Shown here: one piece after another, positions 2,392 to 17,782 of the stretch
How the letters are laid out: the number at the start of each line of letters is the position of its first letter
How positions within the stretch are numbered: position 1 is the first letter of the stretch
Virus record (IMG/VR): IMGVR_UViG_3300047443_000066
Location: 1-31,645 of that record
Length of the DNA stretch: 31,645 nt
Strand: one strand, 5' to 3'
From: a virus
Translations under genes and position numbers: made by a program
The notes under the pieces: generated by a model
What the model saw: the letters and a program-made list of their open reading frames with translations, nothing else
What the model was told of the DNA's origin: nothing
Database searches by the model: none

Positions 2392-2417
2392 CCCCGGTCC
2401 TTGTGGCCGGGGTTTTT
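2392..2417 (+). terminator. Rho-independent terminator just before the modification operon
   Basis: CCCCGG at 2392-2397 pairs with CCGGGG at 2407-2412, an inner CC/GG pair extends the stem, and TTTTT lies at 2413-2417. Only 29 nt separate the T tract from the ParB-like start at 2447. A normal promoter does not fit there, so this element may attenuate rather than end transcription. Confidence 0.75.
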
Positions 2418-2446
2418 CATGCCCGCCCCCTCACGGGAGACGCACG

Positions 2447-3040
2447 ATGCCAGCGCAGTACGTAGAGACCCGCGACATACCGATCGACGAGCTGACCCCG
2501 TTCCCCGGCAACGCCAAGAGGGGTGACGTCGAGTCGATCCGGGCCAGCCTGCGCCGTAACGGCCAGTACCGGTCCCTGATCGTCCGCCAGGTCGAGAACG
2601 GCCCGCTGATCGTCCTAGCCGGCAACCACACCATGCAGGCCCTCGCCGCGGAGGGCAACGAGACCGCCCGGTGCGAGGTGGTCACCTGCGACGAGGCAGA
2701 GGCCCGGCGCATCAACCTTGCCGACAACCGGCTGGCGGAGATGGGCACGTACGACAACGACGCCCTCGCCGAGCTGCTGTCGTACCTCGACGGCGACTAC
2801 GAGGGCACGGGCTACAACGAGCACGACATCGAAATGCTCATCACCCCGCCGCCGGACCTCGATGCGCTCGCCGACGAGCTGGGCGACCCGGAGGAAGACG
2901 ACCTCTGGCCGATCCTGCGGTTCAAGGTCCCGCCGAACATCCGCGACGACTTCTACGACCTGTCGACCGGTTGTGAGGTCCCCGACGACGACGCGGCCCG
3001 GTTCATCTTCATCATGAACAAGCTCCGGGCCCTGACGTGA
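2447..3040 (+). CDS. ParB-like nuclease/sulfiredoxin-fold protein, possible DpdB-type partner of DpdA
   Basis: The protein has 197 residues; CGGGAGA supports the ATG. Residues 10-90 fit the ParB N-terminal fold: IPIDELTPFPGNAK, then GQYRSLIVRQ, then a box reading AGNHTMQALAAEG. That box replaces the GERRxxA of chromosomal ParB, so CTP-type partition function is unlikely. The C-terminal 60 residues are acidic and unassigned. It opens a seven-gene operon and overlaps the first DpdA gene by GTGA at 3037-3040. In bacterial dpd islands a ParB-superfamily protein, DpdB, acts with DpdA to put preQ0 into DNA. A similar helper role is an inference from position and fold. A stand-alone ParB-like nuclease is the alternative. 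Confidence 0.75.
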   Translation: MPAQYVETRDIPIDELTPFPGNAKRGDVESIRASLRRNGQYRSLIVRQVENGPLIVLAGNHTMQALAAEGNETARCEVVTCDEAEARRINLADNRLAEMGTYDNDALAELLSYLDGDYEGTGYNEHDIEMLITPPPDLDALADELGDPEEDDLWPILRFKVPPNIRDDFYDLSTGCEVPDDDAARFIFIMNKLRALT

Positions 3041-3939
3041 CGCTGCGGGTCCTGGTGTCGTACCACTACCACCGGGACACCGACCTCGCGCACCTGGTCG
3101 ACGAAATCGGCGGCGACGTCGACCTGTTCGCCGACTCCGGCGCCTACTCGGCGGCCACCACCGGCGCCACCATCAAGCTCGCCGACTACGCGGCATGGCT
3201 CAAGCAGTGGGCGCCGCTGTGGACCGTGCGCTCCAACCTGGACGTCATCGGCGACCACGCCGGCACCGCCGCGAACCTCGCCCGGCTCCAGGACGCAGGG
3301 GTCGACCCGCTGCCGGTCTTCCACACCGGGGAACCCTGGCGGGTGCTGGAGCGGCTGTGTGAGCAGCACCGGTATGTCGCGCTCGGCGGCCTGGCGCTCC
3401 ACGCGGTCGGCGGCGCCAAGCAGAACGTGCTGATGAAGTGGCTGGTGAAGGCGTTCCTCATCGCCCGCGAGCACGGCACCGTCTTCCACGGGTTCGGGCT
3501 CACGTCGCCCTCCCTGATCAACAGCCTGCCGTTCTACTCGGTGGACTCCAGCTCCTACACCATGGGGCAGCGGTTCGGCCTGGTCTACCTGTGGGACTCC
3601 CGGAACCTGAAGATGCACTCCGTCTTCTTCCGCAACCCCACCGAGGTCCGGCCGCGGGCGGACCTGTTCCGCCGGCACGGCCTTCCCGCCGCCCGCGTCA
3701 TGGACCCCGGGTTCATGCGGTCGGGCACCGACACTCACCACGCCGACCGGGCCGCGCTCACCGGCGCCTCCGCCCGCGCGTACGGGTTCCTGGAGGAGTC
3801 CCTGACCGCCCGTCACCGCGTGGACGCCCCATCGCTGCCCCGGCACGCCGACACCGGCACGAAGGTCTACCTGGCGCTGGCCGGCACCAACCGATCCGAC
3901 ATGGACCCGCTGCGGCTCCTGGTGAAGGAGGCAGCGTGA
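3037..3939 (+). CDS. dpdA: DpdA-like DNA 7-deazaguanine transglycosylase, copy 1
   Basis: The protein has 300 residues and a GTG start inside the preceding stop. It belongs to the tRNA-guanine transglycosylase superfamily in its phage DpdA form, which exchanges guanine in DNA for preQ0. Conserved segments in order are LFADSGAYSA (about residues 30-39, active-site Asp), LDVIGD, VFHTGEPW, VALGGL, TVFHGFG and FYSVDSSSY (about 166-174, probable nucleophile Asp). No Cys-rich zinc site of classical Tgt enzymes is visible. The C-terminus holds one GTKVYLA-type unit (from nt 3856), which is repeated three times in the next gene. It overlaps the second copy by GTGA. The substrate base is inferred from the neighbouring queC, queD, queE and folE. 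Confidence 0.82.
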   Translation: MTLRVLVSYHYHRDTDLAHLVDEIGGDVDLFADSGAYSAATTGATIKLADYAAWLKQWAPLWTVRSNLDVIGDHAGTAANLARLQDAGVDPLPVFHTGEPWRVLERLCEQHRYVALGGLALHAVGGAKQNVLMKWLVKAFLIAREHGTVFHGFGLTSPSLINSLPFYSVDSSSYTMGQRFGLVYLWDSRNLKMHSVFFRNPTEVRPRADLFRRHGLPAARVMDPGFMRSGTDTHHADRAALTGASARAYGFLEESLTARHRVDAPSLPRHADTGTKVYLALAGTNRSDMDPLRLLVKEAA

Positions 3940-5015
3940 CGTTCCGGTTCCTGGTGTCGTTCCATTACCACAAGGAGACCGACCTCCAGGCCATCGTCGA
4001 CACCTACGGCGGCCCGTGCGAGGTGTTCGCCGACTCCGGGGCGTTCTCCGCGGCAACCCTCGGCGCGACCATCAAGCGCGCCGACTACGCGGCCTGGCTG
4101 CACCAGTGGCGCGGCGTCATCACCACCGCGGCGACGCTGGACGTCATCGGCGACCCGGCCGCCACCCACCGCAACACCCAGACCCTCGAAAACGAGGGCC
4201 TGACGGTGCTCCCCGTCTTCCACGTCGGCTCACCGTGGGAGCGGCTGCACGAACTGTGCAAGGAGTACCAGTACATCGCCCTCGGCGGCATGGTCCCGCA
4301 CGCCAAGAAGCCCGACGCGGTCCTGCGGTGGCTGGTGAAGTGCTTCCAGATCGCCCGCGAGTACGGGACGGTCTTCCACGGCTTCGGACAGACCCGGTTC
4401 GCCACCATCGCCGCCCTGCCGTTCTACTCGGTGGACTCCTCCGCCTGGGGCTCCGGCTCCCGGTACGGGCAGATCGCCTTGTGGGACGAGCGTAGGGCGA
4501 AGCTGGTCACCGTCCAGGTGTCCCGGCCGGACCAGGCCCGCAAGCACGCCGACCTGCTGCGCTCCCACGGCGCTGACCCCAACCTCGTCGGCCGGCCCGG
4601 GTTCGCCGTGGCCAAGCAGCGCACCCGCGAGCAGTACGAGCGGGAAGACCTGATGATGCGCGGCGCCCCCGCCATCGCCTACCACCGGCTCGGTCAGTGG
4701 CTGATCCGCCGCCACCGCGTCCCGGCCCCACCCGGCTGGGAACGCCCCGGCACCGCCCTGTACCTGGCTGACGGTGCCGTTGCGCAGCTCACGAAGGCTG
4801 CGTCGGTGCTCCGCGACGAGGAGAACCGCGGCACGCACATGTACCTCGCCGAGACCGCCACGGTGAACCTCCACAAAGCCGCCCGGGTCATCGCCCGCGA
4901 GGACGAAGGCACCCAGCTGTACCTCGCCGAGGCCAACCCCAAGCACCTCCACAAGATCGCGAAGGCCATCGCCGGCGACACCGGCGTGGCCGCACGGAAA
5001 GGCAGCCCCTCATGA
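3936..5015 (+). CDS. dpdA: DpdA-like DNA 7-deazaguanine transglycosylase, copy 2, with C-terminal repeats
   Basis: The protein has 359 residues. The GTG at 3936 is chosen because it gives a 4-nt overlap with copy 1 and its first residues (MTFRFLVSFHYHKETD) align with the start of copy 1. The same landmarks appear in the same order: VFADSGAFSA, LDVIGD, PVFHVGSPW, IALGGM, TVFHGFG and FYSVDSSAW. Both predicted catalytic Asp residues are kept, so neither copy looks dead. The copies are clearly paralogous over about 200 residues but diverge after it. Residues 272-349 are three tandem units, each starting with a GT..YLA motif. ATGA links it to queC. Two DpdA proteins could recognise different DNA contexts or work as a heteromer, as eukaryotic Tgt enzymes do; that is inference. 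Confidence 0.82.
   Translation: MTFRFLVSFHYHKETDLQAIVDTYGGPCEVFADSGAFSAATLGATIKRADYAAWLHQWRGVITTAATLDVIGDPAATHRNTQTLENEGLTVLPVFHVGSPWERLHELCKEYQYIALGGMVPHAKKPDAVLRWLVKCFQIAREYGTVFHGFGQTRFATIAALPFYSVDSSAWGSGSRYGQIALWDERRAKLVTVQVSRPDQARKHADLLRSHGADPNLVGRPGFAVAKQRTREQYEREDLMMRGAPAIAYHRLGQWLIRRHRVPAPPGWERPGTALYLADGAVAQLTKAASVLRDEENRGTHMYLAETATVNLHKAARVIAREDEGTQLYLAEANPKHLHKIAKAIAGDTGVAARKGSPS
4749..4983 (+). repeat. Three tandem 25-27-codon repeats at the 3' end of DpdA copy 2
   Basis: Units begin at 4749, 4830 and 4908, giving lengths of 27, 26 and about 25 codons. Each encodes GT, two residues, YLA, then a helix with an L-x-K-A-A/I-x-V/A-I/L pattern (GTALYLAD, GTHMYLAE, GTQLYLAE). A single related unit closes DpdA copy 1 at 3856. 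The units look like short strand-helix modules of unknown role. Confidence 0.75.
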
Positions 5016-5683
5016 CGCGCCCCCTCGCCGTACTCGCCTTCTCCGGTGGCATGGACTCCTCCACCCTCGCCGCGCACTACGACGCCAAGGGCTACGACCT
5101 GCTGCTGCTGTCGTTCAACTACGGCCAGCGGCACACCCGCGAACTGACCTCCGCGCGCCTGGTCGCCGGGCACTTCGACGCCGAACACCACGTCGTCGAC
5201 CTGGCCGGCGTCGGCGCACTCATGCCCGGCTCCGCCCTCACCGACGCCGCGGTGCAGGTGCCTGACGGGCACTACGCCGAGGAGTCCATGCGGGTCACGG
5301 TCGTCCCGAACCGCAACGCGATCATGGCGAACATCGCCGTCGGTATCGCGTCCGCGCGCGGCGCCGAGCTCGTCGCCCTCGGTATCCACGCCGGGGACCA
5401 CGCCGTCTACCCGGACTGTCGCCCCGAGTTCCTGGACGCCATGGGGGAGAGCGTTGCTCGCGCCCTGGAGGGCTTCCCCACGCCCCGTATCGAGGCCCCC
5501 TTCATCCGGCAGTCCAAGACGTGGATCGCCGGGTACGCGGCCGAGCTGGACGCCCCGCTTCACCTGTCCTGGTCCTGCTACAAGGGCGGCGAACGGCACT
5601 GCGGCACCTGCGGCACGTGCACCGAGCGCATCGAAGCGTTCGAGGACGCCGGCGTCTACGACCCCACGGAGTACGCCGCATGA
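5012..5683 (+). CDS. queC: 7-cyano-7-deazaguanine (preQ0) synthase QueC
   Basis: The protein has 223 residues, the usual QueC length. It performs the ATP-dependent conversion of 7-carboxy-7-deazaguanine and ammonia to preQ0. The PP-loop SGGMDS lies at residues 11-16, VPNRN and YPDCRPEF follow, and a four-Cys zinc site sits at 189, 197, 200 and 203 (WSCYKGGERHCGTCGTC). All hallmark residues are present, so the enzyme should be active. There is no amidotransferase fusion, so this is a plain QueC. It overlaps the upstream DpdA and downstream queD by ATGA each. It supplies the base used by the transglycosylases. Confidence 0.95.
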   Translation: MTRPLAVLAFSGGMDSSTLAAHYDAKGYDLLLLSFNYGQRHTRELTSARLVAGHFDAEHHVVDLAGVGALMPGSALTDAAVQVPDGHYAEESMRVTVVPNRNAIMANIAVGIASARGAELVALGIHAGDHAVYPDCRPEFLDAMGESVARALEGFPTPRIEAPFIRQSKTWIAGYAAELDAPLHLSWSCYKGGERHCGTCGTCTERIEAFEDAGVYDPTEYAA

Positions 5684-6111
5684 GCCACGCCGTCACCGTC
5701 CGGCACAACTTCGAGACCGGGCACCGGCTGCCGCACCTGCCTGGCAAGTGCGTGTCCCTGCACGGGCACTCGTGGTGGGCCGAGGTCACCGTCGAAACCG
5801 ACGAGATGACCGCCGGCGGCCTGGTCGTGGAGTTCGGCCCCTTCAAGAAGGCGCTGCGGGAGTGGATCGACACCCACCTCGACCATGGCGTCATGCTCGG
5901 CCCTATCGACCCGCTGCTGCCGGTCCTGCGCGCCAACAGCTGCAAGGTGTACGAGGTGGAGGGCTGGCCCACCGTGGAGAACGTCGCCGCCCTGCTCGCC
6001 GACGTCGCCACGAAGGCCCTGGAAGGCCTCGTACGCGCGCCGGGCGCCCGCGTCACCCGCGTCCACGTCCAGGAGACCCACGTCAACGCCGCCACCTGGA
6101 CGGCCCCGTGA
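5680..6111 (+). CDS. queD: 6-carboxy-5,6,7,8-tetrahydropterin synthase QueD
   Basis: The protein has 143 residues. The ATG at 5680 overlaps the queC stop. QueD converts 7,8-dihydroneopterin triphosphate to 6-carboxytetrahydropterin. Zinc ligands His15, His28 and His30 (TGHRL and LHGHSW) and catalytic Cys24 (GKCVSLHG) are present. The later EFGPFK, THLDHGVML, PTVENVA and VHVQET blocks also fit the family. In this family the second block normally reads DF; here it is EF. It takes the FolE product and passes its own to QueE, both encoded immediately downstream. Confidence 0.93.
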   Translation: MSHAVTVRHNFETGHRLPHLPGKCVSLHGHSWWAEVTVETDEMTAGGLVVEFGPFKKALREWIDTHLDHGVMLGPIDPLLPVLRANSCKVYEVEGWPTVENVAALLADVATKALEGLVRAPGARVTRVHVQETHVNAATWTAP

Positions 6112-6815
6112 CCGTGCTGTCCCTCGTCGTCGCCGAGGTGTTCGGGCCCACCGTCCAAGGTGAGGGCCCGTCCACCGGCCGGCGCGCGTCGTTCATCCGG
6201 CTCGGTGCCTGCAACCTCCACTGCACCTGGTGCGACACCCCGTACACGTGGGACGCGTCCCGGTTCGACCTGCGCAAGCAGCTCAAGCGCATGCCCGTGG
6301 ACGAGATCGTTGCCCGGGCGCTGGAGGGCAACCCGGCCATCGTGGTCATCACCGGTGGGGAGCCGCTGCTGCACCAGCGGCGCCCCGGCTGGCTCGCTTT
6401 GCTGGACCAGCTCACCGAGGCCGGCGTCGAGATCGAGGTGGAGACGAACGGCACCATCGCCCCCACGCCGGAAACGGTGTGGCGGGTCAGCCGCTTCAAC
6501 GTCTCCCCGAAGCTCGCGCACGCCGGTGACCCGGAAGAGGCCCGTATCCGCCCCGACGCCCTCCAGGCCCTGGTGAAGACCGGGCGGGCCGCCTTCAAGT
6601 TCGTGTGCGCCACCGACACGGACGTTGACGAGGTCGCGGAGGTGGCCGCCCGCCTGGGCCTGCCGGCCCGCATGGTGTGGGTCATGCCGGAGGGCACCAA
6701 CACGGCCGACCTGTGCGAGCACCTGGCCGCCATCGCCGACCCCGCCATCGCGGCCGGCTTCAACCTGACCACCCGCCTCCACGTGCACGCGTGGGGGAAC
6801 GAGAGGGCACGATGA
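6108..6815 (+). CDS. queE: 7-carboxy-7-deazaguanine synthase QueE (radical SAM)
   Basis: The protein has 235 residues. The GTG at 6108 overlaps the queD stop by GTGA; another GTG at 6114 is possible. It is a radical SAM enzyme that converts 6-carboxytetrahydropterin to 7-carboxy-7-deazaguanine. The cluster motif is CNLHCTWC, with Cys35, Cys39 and Cys42, the plain CxxxCxxC form. EVFGPTVQGEGPSTG near the N-terminus and ITGGEPLL (about residues 81-88) are QueE and SAM-binding signatures. WVMPEG near residue 188 also fits. The C-terminus overlaps folE by ATGA. All catalytic residues appear intact. Confidence 0.94.
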   Translation: MTVLSLVVAEVFGPTVQGEGPSTGRRASFIRLGACNLHCTWCDTPYTWDASRFDLRKQLKRMPVDEIVARALEGNPAIVVITGGEPLLHQRRPGWLALLDQLTEAGVEIEVETNGTIAPTPETVWRVSRFNVSPKLAHAGDPEEARIRPDALQALVKTGRAAFKFVCATDTDVDEVAEVAARLGLPARMVWVMPEGTNTADLCEHLAAIADPAIAAGFNLTTRLHVHAWGNERAR

Positions 6816-7408
6816 CTCTTAACCCCTCACCCCGTGCCGCGGCCGCCCGCAAGTTCACCGCTGGCCTGAACGCCTGGTTCGAGGCTCGCGGCCTGGACCC
6901 CGACGGCCCGGCCCTGTCCGGCACCCCGGGCCGAGTGTTGCGCGCCCTGGACGAGTTCACCGCCGGGTACGAGGACGACCCCGCCCGGCACCTCGCGCGC
7001 GTGTTCCCTGTGGAACATTCCGGGGAGCCCATCGCCGTCACCGGCGTGCCGTTCACGGCGCTCTGTGAGCACCACATGCTGCCGTTCAGCGGCACCGCCG
7101 ACATCGCGTACCTGCCCAAGCCCGGCGCCCCCGTCGCTGGCCTGTCCAAGCTCCCGAGGGTGCTGGACGTGTACGCGAAGCGTCTGCAGACCCAGGAGCA
7201 GATCACCCAGCAGGTGACCGCGGCCCTGGACGAGCACCTGGAATCCCTCGGCGCGGCCTGCGTCATCCGCTCCGAACACGGCTGCCTCGCCCTGCGCGGC
7301 GCCCGTAAGCCCGGCTCGCAGATGGTTACCGCCTCGTACACGGGCCGGTTCCTCAACGACCCGCAGGCCCGCGCCGAGCTGCACACCCTGTTCAACGCCC
7401 GCGCGTAG
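6812..7408 (+). CDS. folE: GTP cyclohydrolase I FolE
   Basis: The protein has 198 residues. It opens the pathway by converting GTP to dihydroneopterin triphosphate. Motifs in order are GTPGRV, CEHHMLPFSG with zinc ligands Cys85 and His88, IAYLPK, GLSKLPR, RLQTQEQIT and HGCLALRG with the third zinc ligand Cys158. The family's SEHGC..RG block is kept. It closes the operon of overlapping genes. A 13-nt gap with GGGAGG then leads into the packaging genes, so the two modules may share a transcript. A phage-borne FolE lets deazaguanine synthesis run without drawing on the host folate enzyme. Confidence 0.95.
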   Translation: MTLNPSPRAAAARKFTAGLNAWFEARGLDPDGPALSGTPGRVLRALDEFTAGYEDDPARHLARVFPVEHSGEPIAVTGVPFTALCEHHMLPFSGTADIAYLPKPGAPVAGLSKLPRVLDVYAKRLQTQEQITQQVTAALDEHLESLGAACVIRSEHGCLALRGARKPGSQMVTASYTGRFLNDPQARAELHTLFNARA

Positions 7409-7421
7409 GGAGGTTGCCGCC

Positions 7422-7763
7422 ATGGCGGAGGAACCCGACGGCGTTCTGCCGACCGACGACCCCCGCGCCGTGCAGGCCCTCCAGCTGCGCCTCGCGGGCG
7501 TCGACTGGCACACCATCGCCGACCGGCTCGACTTCCCGGACGTGGTGGACGCCATCGACGCCGCTACGGCGGTCGCCGACACCCAGTTCGACGGCATCTC
7601 GATGGACCCCCTGCGGGTCCTGCAACTCCTGCGCCTTGACCGGCTCCAGGCCGCGGTGTGGCCCGCAGCGATGAAGGGCGACCTCAAGGCCGTCGACGCC
7701 GTCCTGTCCATCGACGACCGCCGTACCCGGGCCCTGCGCCTCAACCAGCGGAGCCGGGATTGA
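7422..7763 (+). CDS. Helix-turn-helix protein, small-terminase-like
   Basis: The protein has 113 residues; GGGAGG 8 nt before ATG is a strong ribosome site. Residues 18-38 (LQLRLAGVDWHTIADRLDF) form a helix-turn-helix as in small terminase subunits. The second half, with LLRLDRLQAAVWPAAMKGD and AVDAVLSIDDRRTRAL, matches a block common in actinophage genes just before terL. It probably recognises DNA for packaging. The next gene overlaps it by TTGA. Which of the two is the true small terminase cannot be told from sequence alone. Confidence 0.65.
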   Translation: MAEEPDGVLPTDDPRAVQALQLRLAGVDWHTIADRLDFPDVVDAIDAATAVADTQFDGISMDPLRVLQLLRLDRLQAAVWPAAMKGDLKAVDAVLSIDDRRTRALRLNQRSRD

Positions 7764-8350
7764 GCGGCCTGCGCCCCAAGCACGCCGGCGCCGGCAAACC
7801 GCGCTGTGGGGCCCAGAAACGGCAGGGCGCCCCTGGTGACACCTGCACCCTGGTGGCCGGGTTCGGTACCGACCACGTCGGTATCGGCCGGTGCAAGTTC
7901 CACGGCGGCAACACCCGCAACCAGCGGGTCGCGGCCCGCACGGAACTCGCCGACCTTGAGGCCCGCCAGGTGCTCGCCACGCTGGAAGTCACCCCGGTCG
8001 GTGACCCGTTCGCCGCCCTGTCCCGCCTCGCCGGCCAGGTCGTCGCCTGGCAGGAGGCCATCAGCAGCATTGTCAACCAGCTCGGTGACCGCATCCGCTA
8101 CGAAGGCGCCTCCGGCTCCGAGCAGCTGCGCGCCGAAATCGCCCTCTACGAGAGGGCCATGGACCGTACCGGCCAGATCCTCGGCTTGATCGCCAAGCTC
8201 AACATCGAGGACCGCATGGCCCGGGTCACCGAACGCCAGGCGGACGCGCTCGTGTCCGCCCTGGAGGCAGCGCTGGCCGCGGCCGGCGTGACCGGCACGG
8301 CCGCGGACGACGCCCGTAAGGCCGCCGCCCGCCACCTGCGCGCCGTCTAA
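7760..8350 (+). CDS. Putative terminase small subunit with N-terminal Cys/His motif
   Basis: The protein has 196 residues. The TTG at 7760 is chosen because it overlaps the upstream stop by 4 nt and no ATG or GTG lies before the conserved region. The N-terminus has a Cys/His arrangement, KPRCGAQ, then CTLVAGFGTDH, then GRCKFHGG, a signature often seen in actinophage proteins just before terL. It may bind zinc. The rest is predicted helical with a long amphipathic segment. Together with the preceding gene it probably forms the DNA-recognition part of the packaging motor. A homing-endonuclease-like role is less likely because no HNH triad is seen. Confidence 0.6.
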   Translation: MSGLRPKHAGAGKPRCGAQKRQGAPGDTCTLVAGFGTDHVGIGRCKFHGGNTRNQRVAARTELADLEARQVLATLEVTPVGDPFAALSRLAGQVVAWQEAISSIVNQLGDRIRYEGASGSEQLRAEIALYERAMDRTGQILGLIAKLNIEDRMARVTERQADALVSALEAALAAAGVTGTAADDARKAAARHLRAV

Positions 8351-8381
8351 CCCCCCTCACCCTCACCCCTCGGAGCAACAC

Positions 8382-8849
8382 GTGCAGCTCGACGCAGAAC
8401 TCGCCCTCGACGAATGGGAAAGCGCCTTCAAGGCGCAGCAGGAGCTGGCGGTCACCGCCGCCATCGCAGCGTTCCCCTTCTTGGGGCGGATGGGCTACCC
8501 CACCGGCTGCTGCGACCTGCGGATGGAGTGGGAGCAGGACGGGCTCGGCGAGGGCACCGTGTGCGTCGACGACCAGGCCCGCGGCTCCGTCGAGTTCAAG
8601 GGCATGCCGCATGAGCCCGTCGGTAAGGCCATCGACGAGCTGATGGGCAAAGGCTGGTTCCAGGACGCACCCGACGGAATCGCCGCCGCTGGCCCCGGCA
8701 CCTACTGGTGGGACGACGAGGACCACGGGGGCGAGTGGGAGATCAAGGTCACCGACGAGGGCCGCCTGGAGGTGCACATGGACTTCATGCGCATCCCCGA
8801 CATCCTCGGCGTGCTGGACACCCTGCACACCGCCCTCACTGCCAGGTAG
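8382..8849 (+). CDS. Unknown protein inserted between small and large terminase genes
   Basis: The protein has 155 residues with a GTG start and only a weak upstream CGGAG. It is acidic and Trp/Gly/Asp-rich, with segments such as MEWEQDGLGEGTVCVDD and YWWDDEDHGGEWEIKV that suggest beta structure. No known fold is recognised. Its codon usage resembles its neighbours, so it does not look like a recent insertion. It stops 23 nt before the terL start, and its position suggests co-expression with packaging genes. Confidence 0.6.
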   Translation: MQLDAELALDEWESAFKAQQELAVTAAIAAFPFLGRMGYPTGCCDLRMEWEQDGLGEGTVCVDDQARGSVEFKGMPHEPVGKAIDELMGKGWFQDAPDGIAAAGPGTYWWDDEDHGGEWEIKVTDEGRLEVHMDFMRIPDILGVLDTLHTALTAR

Positions 8850-8872
8850 ACACCCGGGAGGAGGCGCCCGAG

Positions 8873-10495
8873 GTGTCCAGCGACATGGACGCGCTCGCGC
8901 TGGCCGCCGACCGTCTGGAGGGCCGCAGCGCCGCTGCCGACCGCTACCCCACCCCGCACGACCTTGCCGAGGATCTGGACCCGCACGTCGTTCTCACGCC
9001 CGCGCTGGACCTCCTCGACCAGAACCTGATGGACGTGGCCGACGGACGATGCCGCCGGCTGATTTGGACGATGCCGCCGCAGGAAGGGAAGAGCCAGAGA
9101 GTCAGCCGGACGTTCCCGGCGTGGCTGCTGGCCCGGAACCCGGACCTGCGCGTCGCCATCGCCTCGTACGAACTGGGAACCGCCCGCCGGTGGGGCCGTG
9201 CGATCCGCAACGACATCACCGGCAACCCCGACAAGTTCGGGATGCAGGTCCGCCGCGACACCTCCTCCGCGCAGGAGTGGCAGATCCAGGACCACGACGG
9301 CGGCGTCTACTCGGTCGGTGTCGCCGGTGCACTGACCGGCCGTCCGGTCGATGTGCTGATCATTGACGACCCCATCAAGGACCGCGCGCAGGCCGAATCG
9401 CAGGTCTACCGGGACCGTGTATGGGACTTCTGGACCGACACCGCCCGCACTCGATTCGGCCCGGAGACCCGCGTCATTGTGGTGCTCACCCGGTGGCACG
9501 AGGACGACCTTGCCGGGCGGCTGCTGGCCGGTGATGTGCGCGGCGAGTGGCGGCACGTCAACGTCCCCGCGCAGGCCGACCACGACCCGAACAAGGGCGA
9601 GATTGACCCGCTCGGCCGGGCCCCCGGCGAGTACCTGCTGTCGGCCCGTGGCCGCACCCCCAAGGACTGGGAAGACACCAGGACCGACGTCGGCTCCCGC
9701 ACGTGGAACGCCCTCTACCAGGGCCGCCCGTCCCCGACGTCCGGTGACGTGTGGAAGCGGCAGTGGTGGCGCCGCTACGGCACCCCGCCGTGGTCCCAGC
9801 ACCCCACCCAGGCGGACGCCTACTGGGTCGAGGAGTTCGACCAGCTGGTCATGTCGTGGGACATGGCGTTCAAGGACACGAAGAGCAGCGACTACGTAGT
9901 CGGGCAGGTGTGGGCCCGCAAGGGCGCGAACGTCTACCTGCTGGACCAGATACGCAAGCGGCTGTCCTTCACGGACACCGTGAAGGCGTTCCAGGCCCTC
10001 GTCGGCCGCTGGCCGCAGGCCACCGCGAAGCTCGTCGAGGACAAAGCCAACGGCACCGCCGTCATCAGCACACTCAAGAGCAAGATCCCCGGCATCATCG
10101 CGGTCACTCCGACCGAGTCCAAGTACGCCCGCGCCAACGCCGTTTCACCGGTCATCGAGGCCGGTAACGCGTTCCTGCCGGAGTCGGAGATCGCCTTGTT
10201 CGACCCGGACGAACTCGTCGACGAGGCCGCGGGCTTCCCGAACTCCGCCCACGACGACCAGGTCGACGCCACCAGTCAGGCCCTGGCGTACCTGCTCCTG
10301 GACCAAACCGGCGCGCACGCGTGGATCAACCACTTCCGGGCCAAGGTCGAGGCCGCCCAGGGCGAACCCGACCCACAGCCGGAGTCCGAACCCGCCGAGG
10401 AGGCCTCCGCGCCCCCGGAGCCGGCCGACCCCGAAGAGGACGCGGCCGCCGCCCGTAAACGCGCCCGTGACGCCCGCTTCCGGGACCAGAGATGA
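8873..10495 (+). CDS. terL: Terminase large subunit (packaging ATPase and nuclease)
   Basis: The protein has 540 residues. The GTG at 8873 is set by GGGAGGAG ending 9 nt upstream; an ATG at 8885 is the alternative. The ATPase domain carries a Walker A-like PPQEGKSQR (about residues 66-74) and Walker B VDVLIIDDP (about 158-166). An LTRWHEDDLAGR block fits the coupling region. The RNase H-like nuclease domain shows MSWDMAFKD (about 326), EDKANGTAV (about 389) and HDDQVDATSQAL (about 461), supplying the acidic metal ligands. The last 60 residues are an acidic, Pro/Glu-rich tail ending in basic residues. It docks on the portal encoded downstream and cuts and pumps phage DNA. Confidence 0.95.
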   Translation: MSSDMDALALAADRLEGRSAAADRYPTPHDLAEDLDPHVVLTPALDLLDQNLMDVADGRCRRLIWTMPPQEGKSQRVSRTFPAWLLARNPDLRVAIASYELGTARRWGRAIRNDITGNPDKFGMQVRRDTSSAQEWQIQDHDGGVYSVGVAGALTGRPVDVLIIDDPIKDRAQAESQVYRDRVWDFWTDTARTRFGPETRVIVVLTRWHEDDLAGRLLAGDVRGEWRHVNVPAQADHDPNKGEIDPLGRAPGEYLLSARGRTPKDWEDTRTDVGSRTWNALYQGRPSPTSGDVWKRQWWRRYGTPPWSQHPTQADAYWVEEFDQLVMSWDMAFKDTKSSDYVVGQVWARKGANVYLLDQIRKRLSFTDTVKAFQALVGRWPQATAKLVEDKANGTAVISTLKSKIPGIIAVTPTESKYARANAVSPVIEAGNAFLPESEIALFDPDELVDEAAGFPNSAHDDQVDATSQALAYLLLDQTGAHAWINHFRAKVEAAQGEPDPQPESEPAEEASAPPEPADPEEDAAAARKRARDARFRDQR

Positions 10496-10515
10496 CCCCT
10501 CAAGGAGGCCACGCG

Positions 10516-11439: not shown

Positions 11440-13902
11440 GTGACGATCTCCGCCGTCGGTAGCCTCCAGCAGAACCGCGGTAGCGGCGTCAGCACCCTGA
11501 CCGTCTCCGGCGCCGTGGTGGGGAACGCCTGGCTGCTCATAGTGCGCGTCGCCGACCAGGCAATCGGCGTCTCCTCCATCACCGGTGGCGGACCCGGTAC
11601 CTGGACCCGGATCGCGTCGGTGGCGCAGGCGGTCGTTAACGGCACGATCGAGATATGGCTCGGCCAGATCACGTCGACGGCGTCGACGACGATCACCGCC
11701 TCCTTCAACTCCGACATCACCGGCGTGGCGACGGAGCTGTGCGCCGAACAGTTCTCCTCCAACCTCGCCAATACCGCCTGGACCGCGGACGGTACGGGTG
11801 GCAGCACCTCCGGCTCCGCCACCACGTCGGTCACCTGGTCCACGCTCACCCCGACCGCGGGCAAAGAGCTGTACATCGGGTACGCGTACGTCAGTAACAA
11901 CGTGGTGGCCGGGTCCACGAGCGGCTTCACCTACACCGTCACCGGCGCCGGTAACGGCGTGGTGTGGAACCCCGCCGTCACCGCGGCGGCCACACCGACC
12001 GCCACGCAGGACGTGTCGGGCAATGTCGCCACCCTCGCCGTCCTCGTCCGCGCCGCTGGCACGGTCGGCCTCGCCGGCACGGCCGCCTCGTCGACCGCGC
12101 TGGGCCGACGGCCCGGACCCATCTGGGTGGCGACCGGGACCAGCAGCGCGAGCATCACCCGGGCCGCGTCCATGGCTCGTAGTACGGCGGCAACGGCAAC
12201 GGCCGCAGTCAGCCGGGCCATCACCTGCCGCCTGGCCGTGACGGCGACGGCCGCGCGGAGCGTCGCAACCGCCACCGTGCGGGCGCTCCTCTTCGTGGCT
12301 GCCGTCGCTGGTATCGGCGCCGCGGCCCGCGCAGTTGGTCGTCCGCTCCCCGCGGCGGCCACCAGCACCGGCACGCTACGCCGCGGCGTCGGCCCGACCT
12401 TCCTCGCGGGGGCCGCCGGCAGCACCAGCGTGCGGCGGGCACTCGCGGCCGCCTTCCCCACCGCCCGCGCCGTCGGCGCAGCGCTCGTCCGCGGGCTGCA
12501 ACTCGGCCTCACCCGGGCCGCGCACGGCACCGGGCTTCTCGCTTACGTCCCCGGCCTCAACCTCACGGTCACCGGCACCGGGGCCGCGGTGACGGGTCGC
12601 GGTGTGGGCCGCGCCCTGACCGCGTCCGCGGCCGCCGCCGGCATCCTGCGGCGCGCGGCCAGCACGGTGGTCACCGCCCCCGTCGCGGCCGCCGGGACGA
12701 TCCGCCGGGCCGTGGCTCGCGCGTACGGCACCGCGGCCAACTCCGCGGCGGCCGCCAGCGCCCGGGCGACGCTCGCCCGCACCTACACGGCGACGGCGAC
12801 CGCGGCCGGCACGACGGCCCGAGCGGTCAGCCGGTACCTCGCTACGGCGGGCACCGCCACCGCGGGGCTGGCAACCGGTACGGCGCGACACGTCACCCTG
12901 GCCGTCGCGAGCGCAGTCGGCACCGCACTGACCGTCGGCCGGGCCTTGTACGCCATGCTCGCGGCCGGTGCCGCCGCGGCCGGCAACATCCGCCGGGCCC
13001 TCAACCGCACCCACACCACCGGGACGGCCACCAGTACCAGCGCCCTGGCCCGCACGGTAGGCACCAGCCTCCCAGCGACCTCGGAAGTCGACGGCTCGCT
13101 CCGTAGGGGCCTGGTACGCCCCCAGGTGGTCACAGCTACCGGAACCGCCGCGCTGGCCCGCCAGACGGCGCGACAGCTCGTTTTGGCGGCCACCGCGACC
13201 GCTGCCCGGGCGCTCACCTGGGCCCGAACCACCCTCCTCACTCTGACGGCCGCCGTGCACGGCGCTGGCGCCCTCGGGCGCAACGCCCAAACCACGCTGC
13301 CGGTATCGGGCACCGGCAGCGCCAGCATCACCCGCCGCGCCGGCGTCACCACCACGGCGGTCGCGGCCGCCAAGGGTGACATCACCCGATGGTTCGCACT
13401 GACCGTGTCGGGCATCGCGGCCGGTACCGGCGCCGTCCGCCGCGCGCTGGCACGCCCGTTCACCGCTGCGGTGTCCGCGCACCCGGCGATACGGTCCGCG
13501 GTTTACCTCGTTCTCGAGGCCGCGGCATCGCGCGCGGTGGTGGTGCTGCGGGCGGCCGCGCTGCGTCACACGGTGACGGCCACCACGACCGGGGCCCTTG
13601 TCCGCGGGGCGGCGCTGAACGCCCGTGCGAGCGCCCTTACCACCGCACTGGTCCGCCGGAACATCGGCCGGTCCACGACCACCACGGCGCACGGGGCGGC
13701 GTCCATGGGTACCGGCCGCGTCTTCGCGCTCCTCCTCGCGGCGGCCGCCGTCGCCGCGGTGGCGACGAGCGTGCACCTCATCCGCGCGCTGCGCGACCTC
13801 ACCCTGGCGGCCGCCGGGGTCGTCACCCGCTGGTCGGCCGGCGAGCCCGGCGCCACCTGGCGGGCCTGGCTCACCGGCGGCCGCTGGAACACCGACGAAT
13901 AG
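11440..13902 (+). CDS. 820-residue repeat protein with N-terminal beta domain, probable virion protein
   Basis: GTG at 11440 is fixed by GGGAGGTGA just upstream. Residues 1-210 are a Thr/Ser/Gly-rich beta domain resembling jelly-roll or Ig-like phage surface domains, with GPGTWTRI and SATTSVTWSTL segments. From about residue 215 to 800 the chain is a long run of degenerate units of about 18 residues with the loose pattern A-x-x-R-x-L-x-A-T-A-x-A-x-G-x-L-x-R. Composition is dominated by Ala, Thr, Arg and Val with almost no acidic residues. The end (WRAWLTGGRWNTDE) is not repeated. The charge could favour DNA or membrane contact, but function is unknown. Its position among head genes suggests a virion component. 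Confidence 0.7.
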   Translation: MTISAVGSLQQNRGSGVSTLTVSGAVVGNAWLLIVRVADQAIGVSSITGGGPGTWTRIASVAQAVVNGTIEIWLGQITSTASTTITASFNSDITGVATELCAEQFSSNLANTAWTADGTGGSTSGSATTSVTWSTLTPTAGKELYIGYAYVSNNVVAGSTSGFTYTVTGAGNGVVWNPAVTAAATPTATQDVSGNVATLAVLVRAAGTVGLAGTAASSTALGRRPGPIWVATGTSSASITRAASMARSTAATATAAVSRAITCRLAVTATAARSVATATVRALLFVAAVAGIGAAARAVGRPLPAAATSTGTLRRGVGPTFLAGAAGSTSVRRALAAAFPTARAVGAALVRGLQLGLTRAAHGTGLLAYVPGLNLTVTGTGAAVTGRGVGRALTASAAAAGILRRAASTVVTAPVAAAGTIRRAVARAYGTAANSAAAASARATLARTYTATATAAGTTARAVSRYLATAGTATAGLATGTARHVTLAVASAVGTALTVGRALYAMLAAGAAAAGNIRRALNRTHTTGTATSTSALARTVGTSLPATSEVDGSLRRGLVRPQVVTATGTAALARQTARQLVLAATATAARALTWARTTLLTLTAAVHGAGALGRNAQTTLPVSGTGSASITRRAGVTTTAVAAAKGDITRWFALTVSGIAAGTGAVRRALARPFTAAVSAHPAIRSAVYLVLEAAASRAVVVLRAAALRHTVTATTTGALVRGAALNARASALTTALVRRNIGRSTTTTAHGAASMGTGRVFALLLAAAAVAAVATSVHLIRALRDLTLAAAGVVTRWSAGEPGATWRAWLTGGRWNTDE
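12080..13850 (+). repeat. Degenerate 54-bp coding repeats within the 820-residue protein
   Basis: About 25-30 units of roughly 18 codons can be marked by a recurring Arg or Arg-Arg followed by Ala, an Ala/Thr run and Gly. Examples of unit ends are AGILRR, AGTIRR, AGNIRR, VDGSLRR and GTGAVRR. Unit length varies by a few codons and nucleotide identity is low, so the array is old rather than a fresh expansion. Boundaries are approximate. Confidence 0.65.
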
Positions 13903-14689: not shown

Positions 14690-17600
14690 ATGAGCCTCCG
14701 CGACCGTCTCGCCAAGGCGTTCGGTGCCCGGCCGCCGGCCGACATGCAGGCAGCCGAGGAAACCGCCGGGATGTCCCCGACGCGGCCGTTCTCCCCGGGC
14801 CAGCCCATCGGCCCGTACGACGGCTACAACCGCACGCCCCGCACCCATGACTTCGTCACCGGGTACAACATCTCCGCCCGGCCCAAGGCGAACGAGCGGG
14901 TCTCCTTCGAAACGTTGCGCGGCCTGGTCGACTCCTACGACGTGGCGCAGATGTGCATCTGGCACCGCATCGACTCCATCCGCGCCCTCGACTGGGCCCT
15001 CGTCCCCGCCCGTGGCTTCCGCGGCGACGCCGACCAGGCCATCGACATCGGCATGCAGGTGCTGTCCAAGCCGGACCGGCAGAACTCGTTCTCCACCTGG
15101 CTTGCGACCTGGCTGTACGACATCCTCGCCTACGACGCCGGCACCCTGTACCGGCTGCGGAACCGCGGCGGCCGCGCGATTGGCCTCCGGGTCGTCGACG
15201 GCACGTCGATCGCCCCGCTCCTGGACTACTGGGGCAACAGCCCCGAGCCGCCCGCCGAGGCGTATGTGCAGTACGCGAACGGCCTGCCCTGGAACTGGCT
15301 CACCCGCCACGACCTGGTGTACACCCCGTTCCGGCCGCGGGCGAGCAGCCCTTACGGGTACGCGCCGCTCGAAAGCATCCTGCTCAACGCCAACACCGAC
15401 CTCCGGTTCCAGGCGTACTTCCTCCAGCGGTTCACCGAGGGCAACATCCCCGAGGCGTTCGCGTCGGCGCCGGAGTCCTGGACCCCGCAGCAGATCGAGG
15501 AGTTCCAGGGCTACTGGGACGCCTTCATGCTCGGCGACCAGTCGATCAAGCACCAGATCAAGTGGATGCCCGGTGGCGGCAGCATCGTCTGGTCCAACGA
15601 AAAAGACTTCTCCGACGCCTTCTCCCTGTTCCTGATGCGGAAGACCTGCGCGTCCTTCCACATCGTCCCGTCCGACCTGGGCTTCACCGAGACCGTCAAC
15701 AAGTCGTCCGGTGAGACGCAGGCCGACGTGCAGCACCGCGTCGGTGACCTGCCCCTGGTGTCCCACATCCAGGGTGTCCTGACCTCGTTCCTCCAGCACG
15801 ACCTCGGCCTGCCGCTGGAGTTCGCGTTCGACACCGGGCAGGAAAAAGAGGACCGGCTCACCCTCGCTCAGGCGTGGCAGATTTACATCGAGTCCGGCAT
15901 GGCCAGCCCCGACGAGGGCCGCGAGGAGCTGCTGGGCCTGCCCGCCGACCCGCGCCGGCCGACGCCGCGGTTCTTCAACACCAGCCGCCTCGGCCCCGTC
16001 CCGCTGCTCAACATCGACGGCGTCGGCGGCAAGGTCGACCCGGAGACGTACGCGCCGGCCGAAGACCAGGCCCTGCCCGCGCAGCCGTTCGTACCGGCGC
16101 CCGGGGTCCTCCCGGCCCAAGGCACCACGGACGCGGCGACGGTCTCGGCCGCCGAGGACACCTACCAGTCCACCGTCCACGAGACCGCGCAGCAGGTCGC
16201 CAAGGACGCCGCGCCCACGGCCGCCGAGGGCATCACCACCGGCACCGGCCTGCACGGCTACGACCTCGACGACGACGAGGACGAGCCCGGTGAGCTGGTC
16301 AAGCGGGAGATGACCGCCTTCCGGTCCTTCCGTAAGGCCCGCCGACGCTCCGGCGCCTGGCGGGACTTCGAGTTCCGGCACGTCCCCGCGCACGCCGGCC
16401 GCCGCCTCAACCAGGCCGGCCGCGCCCAGGTACGCAAGGACGCCGGCGAGATCGCCTGTGCGGGCCTCGTCGTGCAGGCCACCGACACCGGCCGCGTCCT
16501 CATGCTCCAGCGCGCCCTCACCCCGGACGATCCGGCCGGCGGCACATGGGAGTTCCCCGGCGGCCACCTGGAAGGCGACGAGAAGCCGGTGGCCGGCGCC
16601 GTCCGCGAGTGGTGCGAGGAGACCCACTTCATCCTCCCCTTCGACCCCGACGCCATGGCCGCGCTCGCGTTCGCCACGCCCGCGTGGACGTCCGGCATCT
16701 ACGCCGGCTACGTCTACACGGTCCCCTCGGAGTCCCTACTGGACCTGACCCGACGCGACCAGGTCACCAACCCCGACGACCCCGACGGGGACAAGGTGGA
16801 GGCCGTCGCCTGGTGGGATCCCGAGCAGCTGCGCGGGAACCCCGCCGTACGCCCGGAACTCCTCGCCGACCTCGACTGCGTCTTGTCCGCGCTCGGCCAC
16901 CCGATAGCCGACGACGACGTCCTCAAGGCAGGCCGCGGCCCAAAAGGTGAGGGCGCTGAAGAAGGCGCGGCCGAACGGTGGCTCGGCTGGCGGATGGACC
17001 TCAAGGCCGTCCGCTACTGGGCACCCCTGATAGCCGCCGCACTCCGCGGCGCCCTCAACCCCCGCCAGATCGCCAAGGCGTGGCTGTCCGCGGCCTCCCA
17101 GCCCACCGCGGGCAGGAAGGCCGACCGGCTGCGTGAACTCAACGCACAGGCCCGCCAGTGGCTGGAGCAGCACGCCCCCGAACTGGCCGCCGCCCTGGAG
17201 GACACCATCGCCGGTGTCTACACCGACGGCTACGTCATCGGTGTCGTAGCCGCCGAGGCCGCCGTCGCTGAAGCCAGCGGCGCGGTCGCGGCCGGTGTCG
17301 ACTGGGCTGGGTGGGAGCCCGGCGACGCGAAGGCAGCCCAGCTTCTCCTCGGCCCCAAGGGCGACGGAGCGGGTCTGCGGAGCCTCCTGAACGACAGCGG
17401 GGTCACCATCCGCTCCATCGTCGACACCCGCCTGGGCGCCCTGGGCCGACTGCTGGCCGAAGGCGCAGAGCGCGGCGACAGCCCCACCACCATCGCCACG
17501 GCGATCGAGGGCCTGCTCAGCGACGCGACACGGGCCGAGATGATCGCCACGACCGAGCTGTGCCGGGCCGTATCCGCGGCCAGCCTCGGCACCTACCTGG

Positions 17601-17782
17601 CGAACGGCATCGAGCGCATCGAATGGGACAGCGCCGGCGACGGCCGCGTCTGCCCGATCTGCCAGACCAACCAAGACGCCGGCCCGCGCACCCCCGGAGA
17701 CACCTTCCCCTCCGGCCAGACCGCACCGCCCGGGCACCCCTGGTGCCGCTGCGCACTCGTACCCGTGACAGGAGGAGCCTGA
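14690..17782 (+). CDS. Portal protein fused to a Nudix hydrolase domain and a MuF-like head morphogenesis domain
   Basis: The protein has 1030 residues in one uninterrupted frame; AGGAGG precedes ATG. Residues 1 to about 450 are a phage portal (SFETLRGLVDSYDVAQMCIW, AYDAGTLYRLRN, KSSGETQADVQHR), forming the ring through which DNA passes. After a linker, residues about 588-721 form a Nudix domain with a box from GGHLEGDEKPVAG to REWCEETHF (about 623-646). The catalytic Glu residues are present, but the usual Gly after EEx is His. Residues about 764-1030 are MuF-like and end with VCPICQ (Cys988) and HPWCRC. Portal-MuF fusions are known; a Nudix domain between them is unusual. The Nudix substrate cannot be told. 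It overlaps the XkdF-like gene. Confidence 0.9.
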   Translation: MSLRDRLAKAFGARPPADMQAAEETAGMSPTRPFSPGQPIGPYDGYNRTPRTHDFVTGYNISARPKANERVSFETLRGLVDSYDVAQMCIWHRIDSIRALDWALVPARGFRGDADQAIDIGMQVLSKPDRQNSFSTWLATWLYDILAYDAGTLYRLRNRGGRAIGLRVVDGTSIAPLLDYWGNSPEPPAEAYVQYANGLPWNWLTRHDLVYTPFRPRASSPYGYAPLESILLNANTDLRFQAYFLQRFTEGNIPEAFASAPESWTPQQIEEFQGYWDAFMLGDQSIKHQIKWMPGGGSIVWSNEKDFSDAFSLFLMRKTCASFHIVPSDLGFTETVNKSSGETQADVQHRVGDLPLVSHIQGVLTSFLQHDLGLPLEFAFDTGQEKEDRLTLAQAWQIYIESGMASPDEGREELLGLPADPRRPTPRFFNTSRLGPVPLLNIDGVGGKVDPETYAPAEDQALPAQPFVPAPGVLPAQGTTDAATVSAAEDTYQSTVHETAQQVAKDAAPTAAEGITTGTGLHGYDLDDDEDEPGELVKREMTAFRSFRKARRRSGAWRDFEFRHVPAHAGRRLNQAGRAQVRKDAGEIACAGLVVQATDTGRVLMLQRALTPDDPAGGTWEFPGGHLEGDEKPVAGAVREWCEETHFILPFDPDAMAALAFATPAWTSGIYAGYVYTVPSESLLDLTRRDQVTNPDDPDGDKVEAVAWWDPEQLRGNPAVRPELLADLDCVLSALGHPIADDDVLKAGRGPKGEGAEEGAAERWLGWRMDLKAVRYWAPLIAAALRGALNPRQIAKAWLSAASQPTAGRKADRLRELNAQARQWLEQHAPELAAALEDTIAGVYTDGYVIGVVAAEAAVAEASGAVAAGVDWAGWEPGDAKAAQLLLGPKGDGAGLRSLLNDSGVTIRSIVDTRLGALGRLLAEGAERGDSPTTIATAIEGLLSDATRAEMIATTELCRAVSAASLGTYLANGIERIEWDSAGDGRVCPICQTNQDAGPRTPGDTFPSGQTAPPGHPWCRCALVPVTGGA

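Follow-up and report, generated by a model that had tools for sequence, protein, structure and literature searches.

The window, a record of 31,645 bp from a Streptomyces-type actinophage, carries two diverged genes for DNA guanine transglycosylases (DpdA) in tandem, both predicted to be intact, in front of a pathway for preQ0. We put at roughly 55% the reading in which both enzymes are active, insert preQ0 and divide the DNA sites between them, where the division is the part that we infer. A firmer result is that DpdA pairs evolved repeatedly and independently, and that natural relatives carry only copy A or only copy B, which makes the question testable.

The modification operon fills the first third of the record. 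All its genes are on the plus strand, and successive genes share 4-nt overlaps. It begins with a ParB-like gene (ParB_N fold, 197 aa, 2447..3040; PHROG 723, E 3.8e-46), whose last 4 nt are shared with dpdA copy A. Copy A (3037..3939, 300 aa) encodes a TIM barrel, and copy B (3936..5015, 359 aa) a TIM barrel followed by three C-terminal strand-helix repeats (GTxLYLA..LxKAA, 4749..4979); both genes have a GTG start. Next in the order are QueC, the preQ0 synthase (5012..5683; Pfam PF06508, E 2.6e-57; TIGR00364 above cut-off), QueD, a 6-carboxytetrahydropterin synthase (5680..6111; PF01242, E 1.3e-24), QueE, a radical-SAM 7-carboxy-7-deazaguanine synthase (6108..6815; PHROG 2076, E 2.9e-67), and FolE, a GTP cyclohydrolase I (6812..7408; PF01227, E 4.2e-53). 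Then comes the terminase large subunit (8873..10495, plus strand, with the start taken from codon-usage gene calling; PHROG 38, E 4e-105 on ORF 8708-10495), a marker of the phage packaging module adjoining the operon, and portal, head and tail genes lie downstream of it. No near DNA match to the region 2400-10500 was found among GenBank phages.

Two proteins outside the operon deserve a mention. In the interval between terminase and portal, an 820-aa ORF (11440-13902) is Ala/Thr/Arg-rich, repetitive and of low complexity, and had no PHROG match. The portal is fused to a NUDIX domain in a 1030-aa protein (14690-17782), which matches portal proteins in its N-terminal part, MutT/NUDIX hydrolases at residues ~587-715, and minor head/head-morphogenesis proteins in its C-terminal part.

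A preliminary description of this DNA had proposed that two paralogous DpdA genes lie head to tail with a 4-nt overlap, and that both keep the active-site Asp pair. Both statements hold. The two open reading frames have GTGA in common (3936..3939, plus strand), and this junction is kept as GTGA or ATGA in the related loci L005, L007, L009, L051, L023 and L024. The pair is far beyond chance, because its order and overlap recur in relatives. The cores of the two copies are ~50% identical (62% at the nucleotide level). Both match PHROG 887/7068 ‘queuine tRNA-ribosyltransferase’ (E 1e-31 to 1e-50), and the DpdA of phage 9g matches copy A by tblastn (E 7e-8). The Pfam model of tRNA TGT, PF01702, had no match at E <= 1 in either copy or within the record, and the bacterial DpdA equivalog NF041059 (cut-off 200 bits) scored 16.6 bits with copy B and gave no match with copy A.

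D33 (DSGA) and D170 (VDSS; D167 in copy B) are present in both copies, as are Asp69, His96, Gly117-Gly118 and His151 (His148 in copy B). D33, D69, H151 and D170 (copy A numbering) are invariant in 57 of the 57 aligned DpdA rows. The observation named beforehand as speaking against the proposal was that one copy had lost a catalytic residue; neither copy lacks an expected residue, and loss of catalytic function in either was rejected on this ground. The second copy was also considered as a member of the DpdA2 subfamily (Vibrio phage nt-1 type), which is defined by the absence of a conserved histidine (PMC6884629). This was rejected, as both copies have that histidine, with His151/His148 taken as its equivalent. 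Among the closest three genomes dN/dS was 0.26-0.34 for copy A and 0.18-0.25 for copy B, and such low values indicate purifying selection on both, which are thus maintained for function. Judged from their sequences, both copies are predicted to be intact and apparently working transglycosylases.

Structure prediction (AlphaFold, AF2) gave models with a mean pLDDT of 93.7 for copy A and 90.9 for copy B. The copy A model aligned with the archaeosine TGT 1iq8 (Z 17.2, rmsd 2.8, 238 residues) and with 7ui4, the solved bacterial DNA preQ0 insertase DpdA of Salmonella Montevideo (Z 16.2, rmsd 3.0, 238 residues). Copy B reached Z 16.0 against TGTs, which makes it a TGT-type TIM barrel; 7ui4 was among the structural matches listed for copy A, and its absence from those listed for copy B carries no weight as a negative result. 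These TGTs were placed on top by VIA-align, whereas Foldseek alone put unrelated TIM barrels first. In profile searches of the PDB, a 41-row profile found 7ui4 first (E 0.17), and the only match obtained with a 7-row profile, a WD-repeat one, was spurious. The hhalign comparison to the E. coli TGT was not significant and aligned only the DSGA/DSGG motif region, and motif and fold are the grounds on which the nucleophile is equated with TGT Asp280. The bacterial DpdA belongs to a restriction-modification island, where DpdB and DpdC are its partners, whereas the window proteins are far below the cut-off of the bacterial DpdA model.

In the maximum-likelihood tree, copy A falls into a clade (98/97) with the first copies of L005, L007, L009, L017 and L051 and the single enzymes of L016, L018 and L020. 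Copy B belongs to a separate clade (99/94), and both have their own orthologues in the five paired loci. A recent duplication within the window lineage was rejected by the AU test (p-AU 1.4e-5), and a single shared ancient duplication behind every pair was rejected as well. The copies of L008, of L036 and of the phages Nicole72/Megan form sister pairs at 100/100, and further pairs are those of L031/L049 and of a Bipper-clade Streptomyces prophage. The window pair is old, and DpdA pairs arose independently several times, because sister pairs at full support and other pairs elsewhere in the tree mark separate duplication events.

This history bears on the idea that the second copy merely supplies more enzyme while a brief infection lasts. 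Such redundancy would agree with the fact that duplications recur and copies get lost, and with the strong ribosome-binding site that copy B has of its own in the window (AAGGAGG at 3925-3931, inside the end of copy A), in L005 and in L007. However, ~50% identity, separate old clades and the rejection of a recent duplication exceed the needs of dosage, the copies differ in fixed, copy-specific loop residues, and there is no sign of gene conversion between them at their level of nucleotide identity. We therefore regard a mere dosage effect as unlikely.

The expectation that phages with this modification usually have one DpdA was borne out for cultured phages, but not for the group of the window itself. 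Two DpdA places were found in three of the 212 matching GenBank phage records, two of which belong to a single phage, Megan, and the third to Nicole72, both of them Microbacterium phages. They were also found in 11 of the 30 IMG/VR records reached from the profile of the window, a sample biased to relatives of the query. Among 393 Streptomyces genomes, a clear match was present in four, and two of these four had a tandem pair. The rarity implied earlier was thus overstated: tandem pairs recur, and the one of Megan is already annotated in GenBank. The pair is conserved in Streptomyces prophages and is not unique to the window virus. Our literature search brought up no paper on two DpdA genes.

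Megan (NC_073368) and Nicole72 (OR159674) have, like the window, a ParB-like or first gene, two consecutive DpdAs, QueC, QueD and QueE. In Nicole72, FolE and terminase also follow the order of the window, and the two adjacent DpdA genes annotated in Megan share the 4-nt overlap. Their copies are nevertheless each other's closest relatives, stemming from an independent duplication, and are only ~30% identical to the window enzymes. The Mycobacterium phages of the Rosebush/CRB2 group share with the window the operon order before the terminase and the lack of an amidotransferase, but have one DpdA only instead of two. In Arthrobacter phage Sonali, gp81 (L053, 2990-3607) is annotated as a second DpdA-like gene, ~3 kb upstream of the operon DpdA gp87; gp81 was not matched by our DpdA profile.

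Single-copy relatives, all of them predicted viruses or prophages, occur for both types of enzyme. L016 and L017 are 94-98% identical around the locus, yet L016 lacks the entire copy B, while its copy A and que genes remain open. L018 and L020 have an A-clade enzyme only, and L019 a B-clade enzyme only. This argues that each copy may be able to work alone, and the loss of copy B in one close relative shows that the benefit of the pair is not universal. An obligate heteromer, like the eukaryotic QTRT1/QTRT2, in which one copy positions the DNA for the other, would have in its favour that the genes are neighbours whose 4-nt overlap is conserved, often a sign of stoichiometric partners, that TGTs act as dimers, and that contacts could be made through the C-terminal strand-helix tails specific to each copy. 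However, the clean natural deletion of copy B and the single-copy relatives of each type weaken this proposal, the catalytic residues are complete in both copies, and no CxCxxC zinc site of the TGT dimer-interface type is visible in either sequence. Taken together, we consider a heteromer quite improbable.

The C-terminal tails vary across the group. Its DpdAs end in one to four strand-helix units (GTxLYLA...), a unit that is essentially DpdA-only among the loci analysed, and that was seen in the window (4749-4979), L005, L007, L013, L019, L025, L030, L049, L058 and L061. The number of units varies between close relatives, with three in the window and two in L005.

When fixed positions were compared across the six paired genomes and L016, 79 were fixed and equal in both copies, and 14 were fixed but different. 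Eight of these 14 lie in the barrel mouth, among 50 barrel-mouth positions (p 0.0006, or p 0.006 if a 3-residue indel is scored once), although the barrel-mouth set was drawn from secondary structure after the differences were seen and the enrichment is based on 12-14 sites. Most of the barrel-mouth differences are found in the loop that follows the GG motif of the base pocket (copy A residues 118-130, 3388..3426, plus strand). In copy A this loop reads GG(L/M)AL.AVG.AKQ and is three residues longer than in copy B, which has GGMVP, a motif that recurs in 7ui4 and in the DpdA of a Rhizobium phage. The GGMVP pocket-rim loop of copy B is ancestral, and the longer loop of copy A is derived. By contrast, the base-pocket residues D33, D69, H96, G117-G118, H151 and D170 are identical in both copies, which favours one base in different surroundings, as far as can be predicted from residues. 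The differing loop borders the pocket, and could influence base choice or kinetics instead of site choice.

Base exchange by means of an Asp nucleophile is an established trait of the TGT family. Each DpdA of the window is probably such a base exchanger, in which Asp170 of copy A or Asp167 of copy B would attack C1' of the target deoxyguanosine, guanine would depart with Asp33 as acid/base, and preQ0 would replace it. The phage operon appears self-contained, in that FolE, QueD, QueE and QueC would make preQ0 from GTP and the two DpdA enzymes would put it into phage DNA. Most likely, the copies share the inserted base and differ in the sequence contexts that they target in DNA, and splitting the contexts would broaden the protection against host restriction enzymes.

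That preQ0 would be the inserted base, and DNA the substrate, is what we infer from close operon relatives. Rosebush and CAjan, with a single DpdA and the same gene set, have DNA that carries dPreQ0, in Rosebush at ~28% of G (PMC6884629). PF01702 was absent from two Streptomyces genomes and one Kutzneria genome with related prophages, and present in 14 of 14 control genomes. With the standard enzyme for queuosine insertion missing from these hosts, DNA modification is the best explanation of the pathway. The least probable alternative, in which the copies insert two different 7-deazaguanines (e.g. preQ0 and a later or earlier intermediate), could draw on the main fixed difference, which abuts the GG(L/M) motif lining the 7-substituent pocket in TGTs, and on the L008/L052 lineage, where a DUF6884 gene lies a short way upstream of the pair, so that the group can vary its base, but it is weakened by the identical pocket residues and by the lack of a match for QueF and DUF6884 (DpdC-type) in the window, itself a fragment, and in the 45-kb close relative G028. 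In the L008/L052 lineage (a virus and a Kutzneria prophage), the DUF6884 gene is located ~2 kb from the DpdA pair (G029:C1:21832-22107 and G033:C2:1281860-1282135) and suggests that preQ0 may there be converted to the amide (ADG).

The preliminary description had offered two sequence specificities, two inserted bases or a heteromeric enzyme as explanations. Its basis, two intact DpdA paralogues, stood with respect to family, structure and residues, while the proposals of two bases and of an obligate heteromer lost ground, and two sequence specificities fits best of the three. The Escherichia phage CAjan sets a limit on how this can be read. It also has a phage-type DpdA inserting preQ0 in DNA, but this single enzyme modifies both GA and GGC motifs (PMC8306585, PMC10002423). 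A second copy is thus not required for two motifs, and two motifs alone do not show a division of labour.

With a division of sites as the preferred reading, having a pair probably allows viruses of soil bacteria to reach different DNA sites with each copy, and the recurrence of pairs suggests that restriction by hosts favours a second inserter time and again. More tentatively, and at somewhat less than even odds, actinophages may repeatedly duplicate DpdA into a set of site-specific inserters, with the loop next to the base pocket deciding which sites are chosen. If true, such a set would be to base replacement what a stock of several DNA methyltransferases is to methylation. The diverged intact paralogues and the natural A-only and B-only genomes are material for finding the specificity determinants of DpdA, and are also useful toward site-directed preQ0 insertion.

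The first gene of the operon has a wider distribution. A DpdB role has been proposed from synteny for ORF1 of CRB2 (PMC6392294). DpdB models had no match for the ParB-like gene of the window, for which PADLOC returned the MTase_II model only and NCBIfam weak ParB models. A role as a DpdA-specific partner was rejected, since most relatives of its N-terminal domain sit away from DpdA, some of them fused to DNA methylases. It looks as if varied DNA-modification enzymes might use a common slot in the genome and have a ParB-type partner in common. The N-terminal domain (window 2447-3040; L066-L098) is widespread ahead of the terminase, mostly without DpdA, and at times it shares a reading frame with an N6/N4 DNA methylase.
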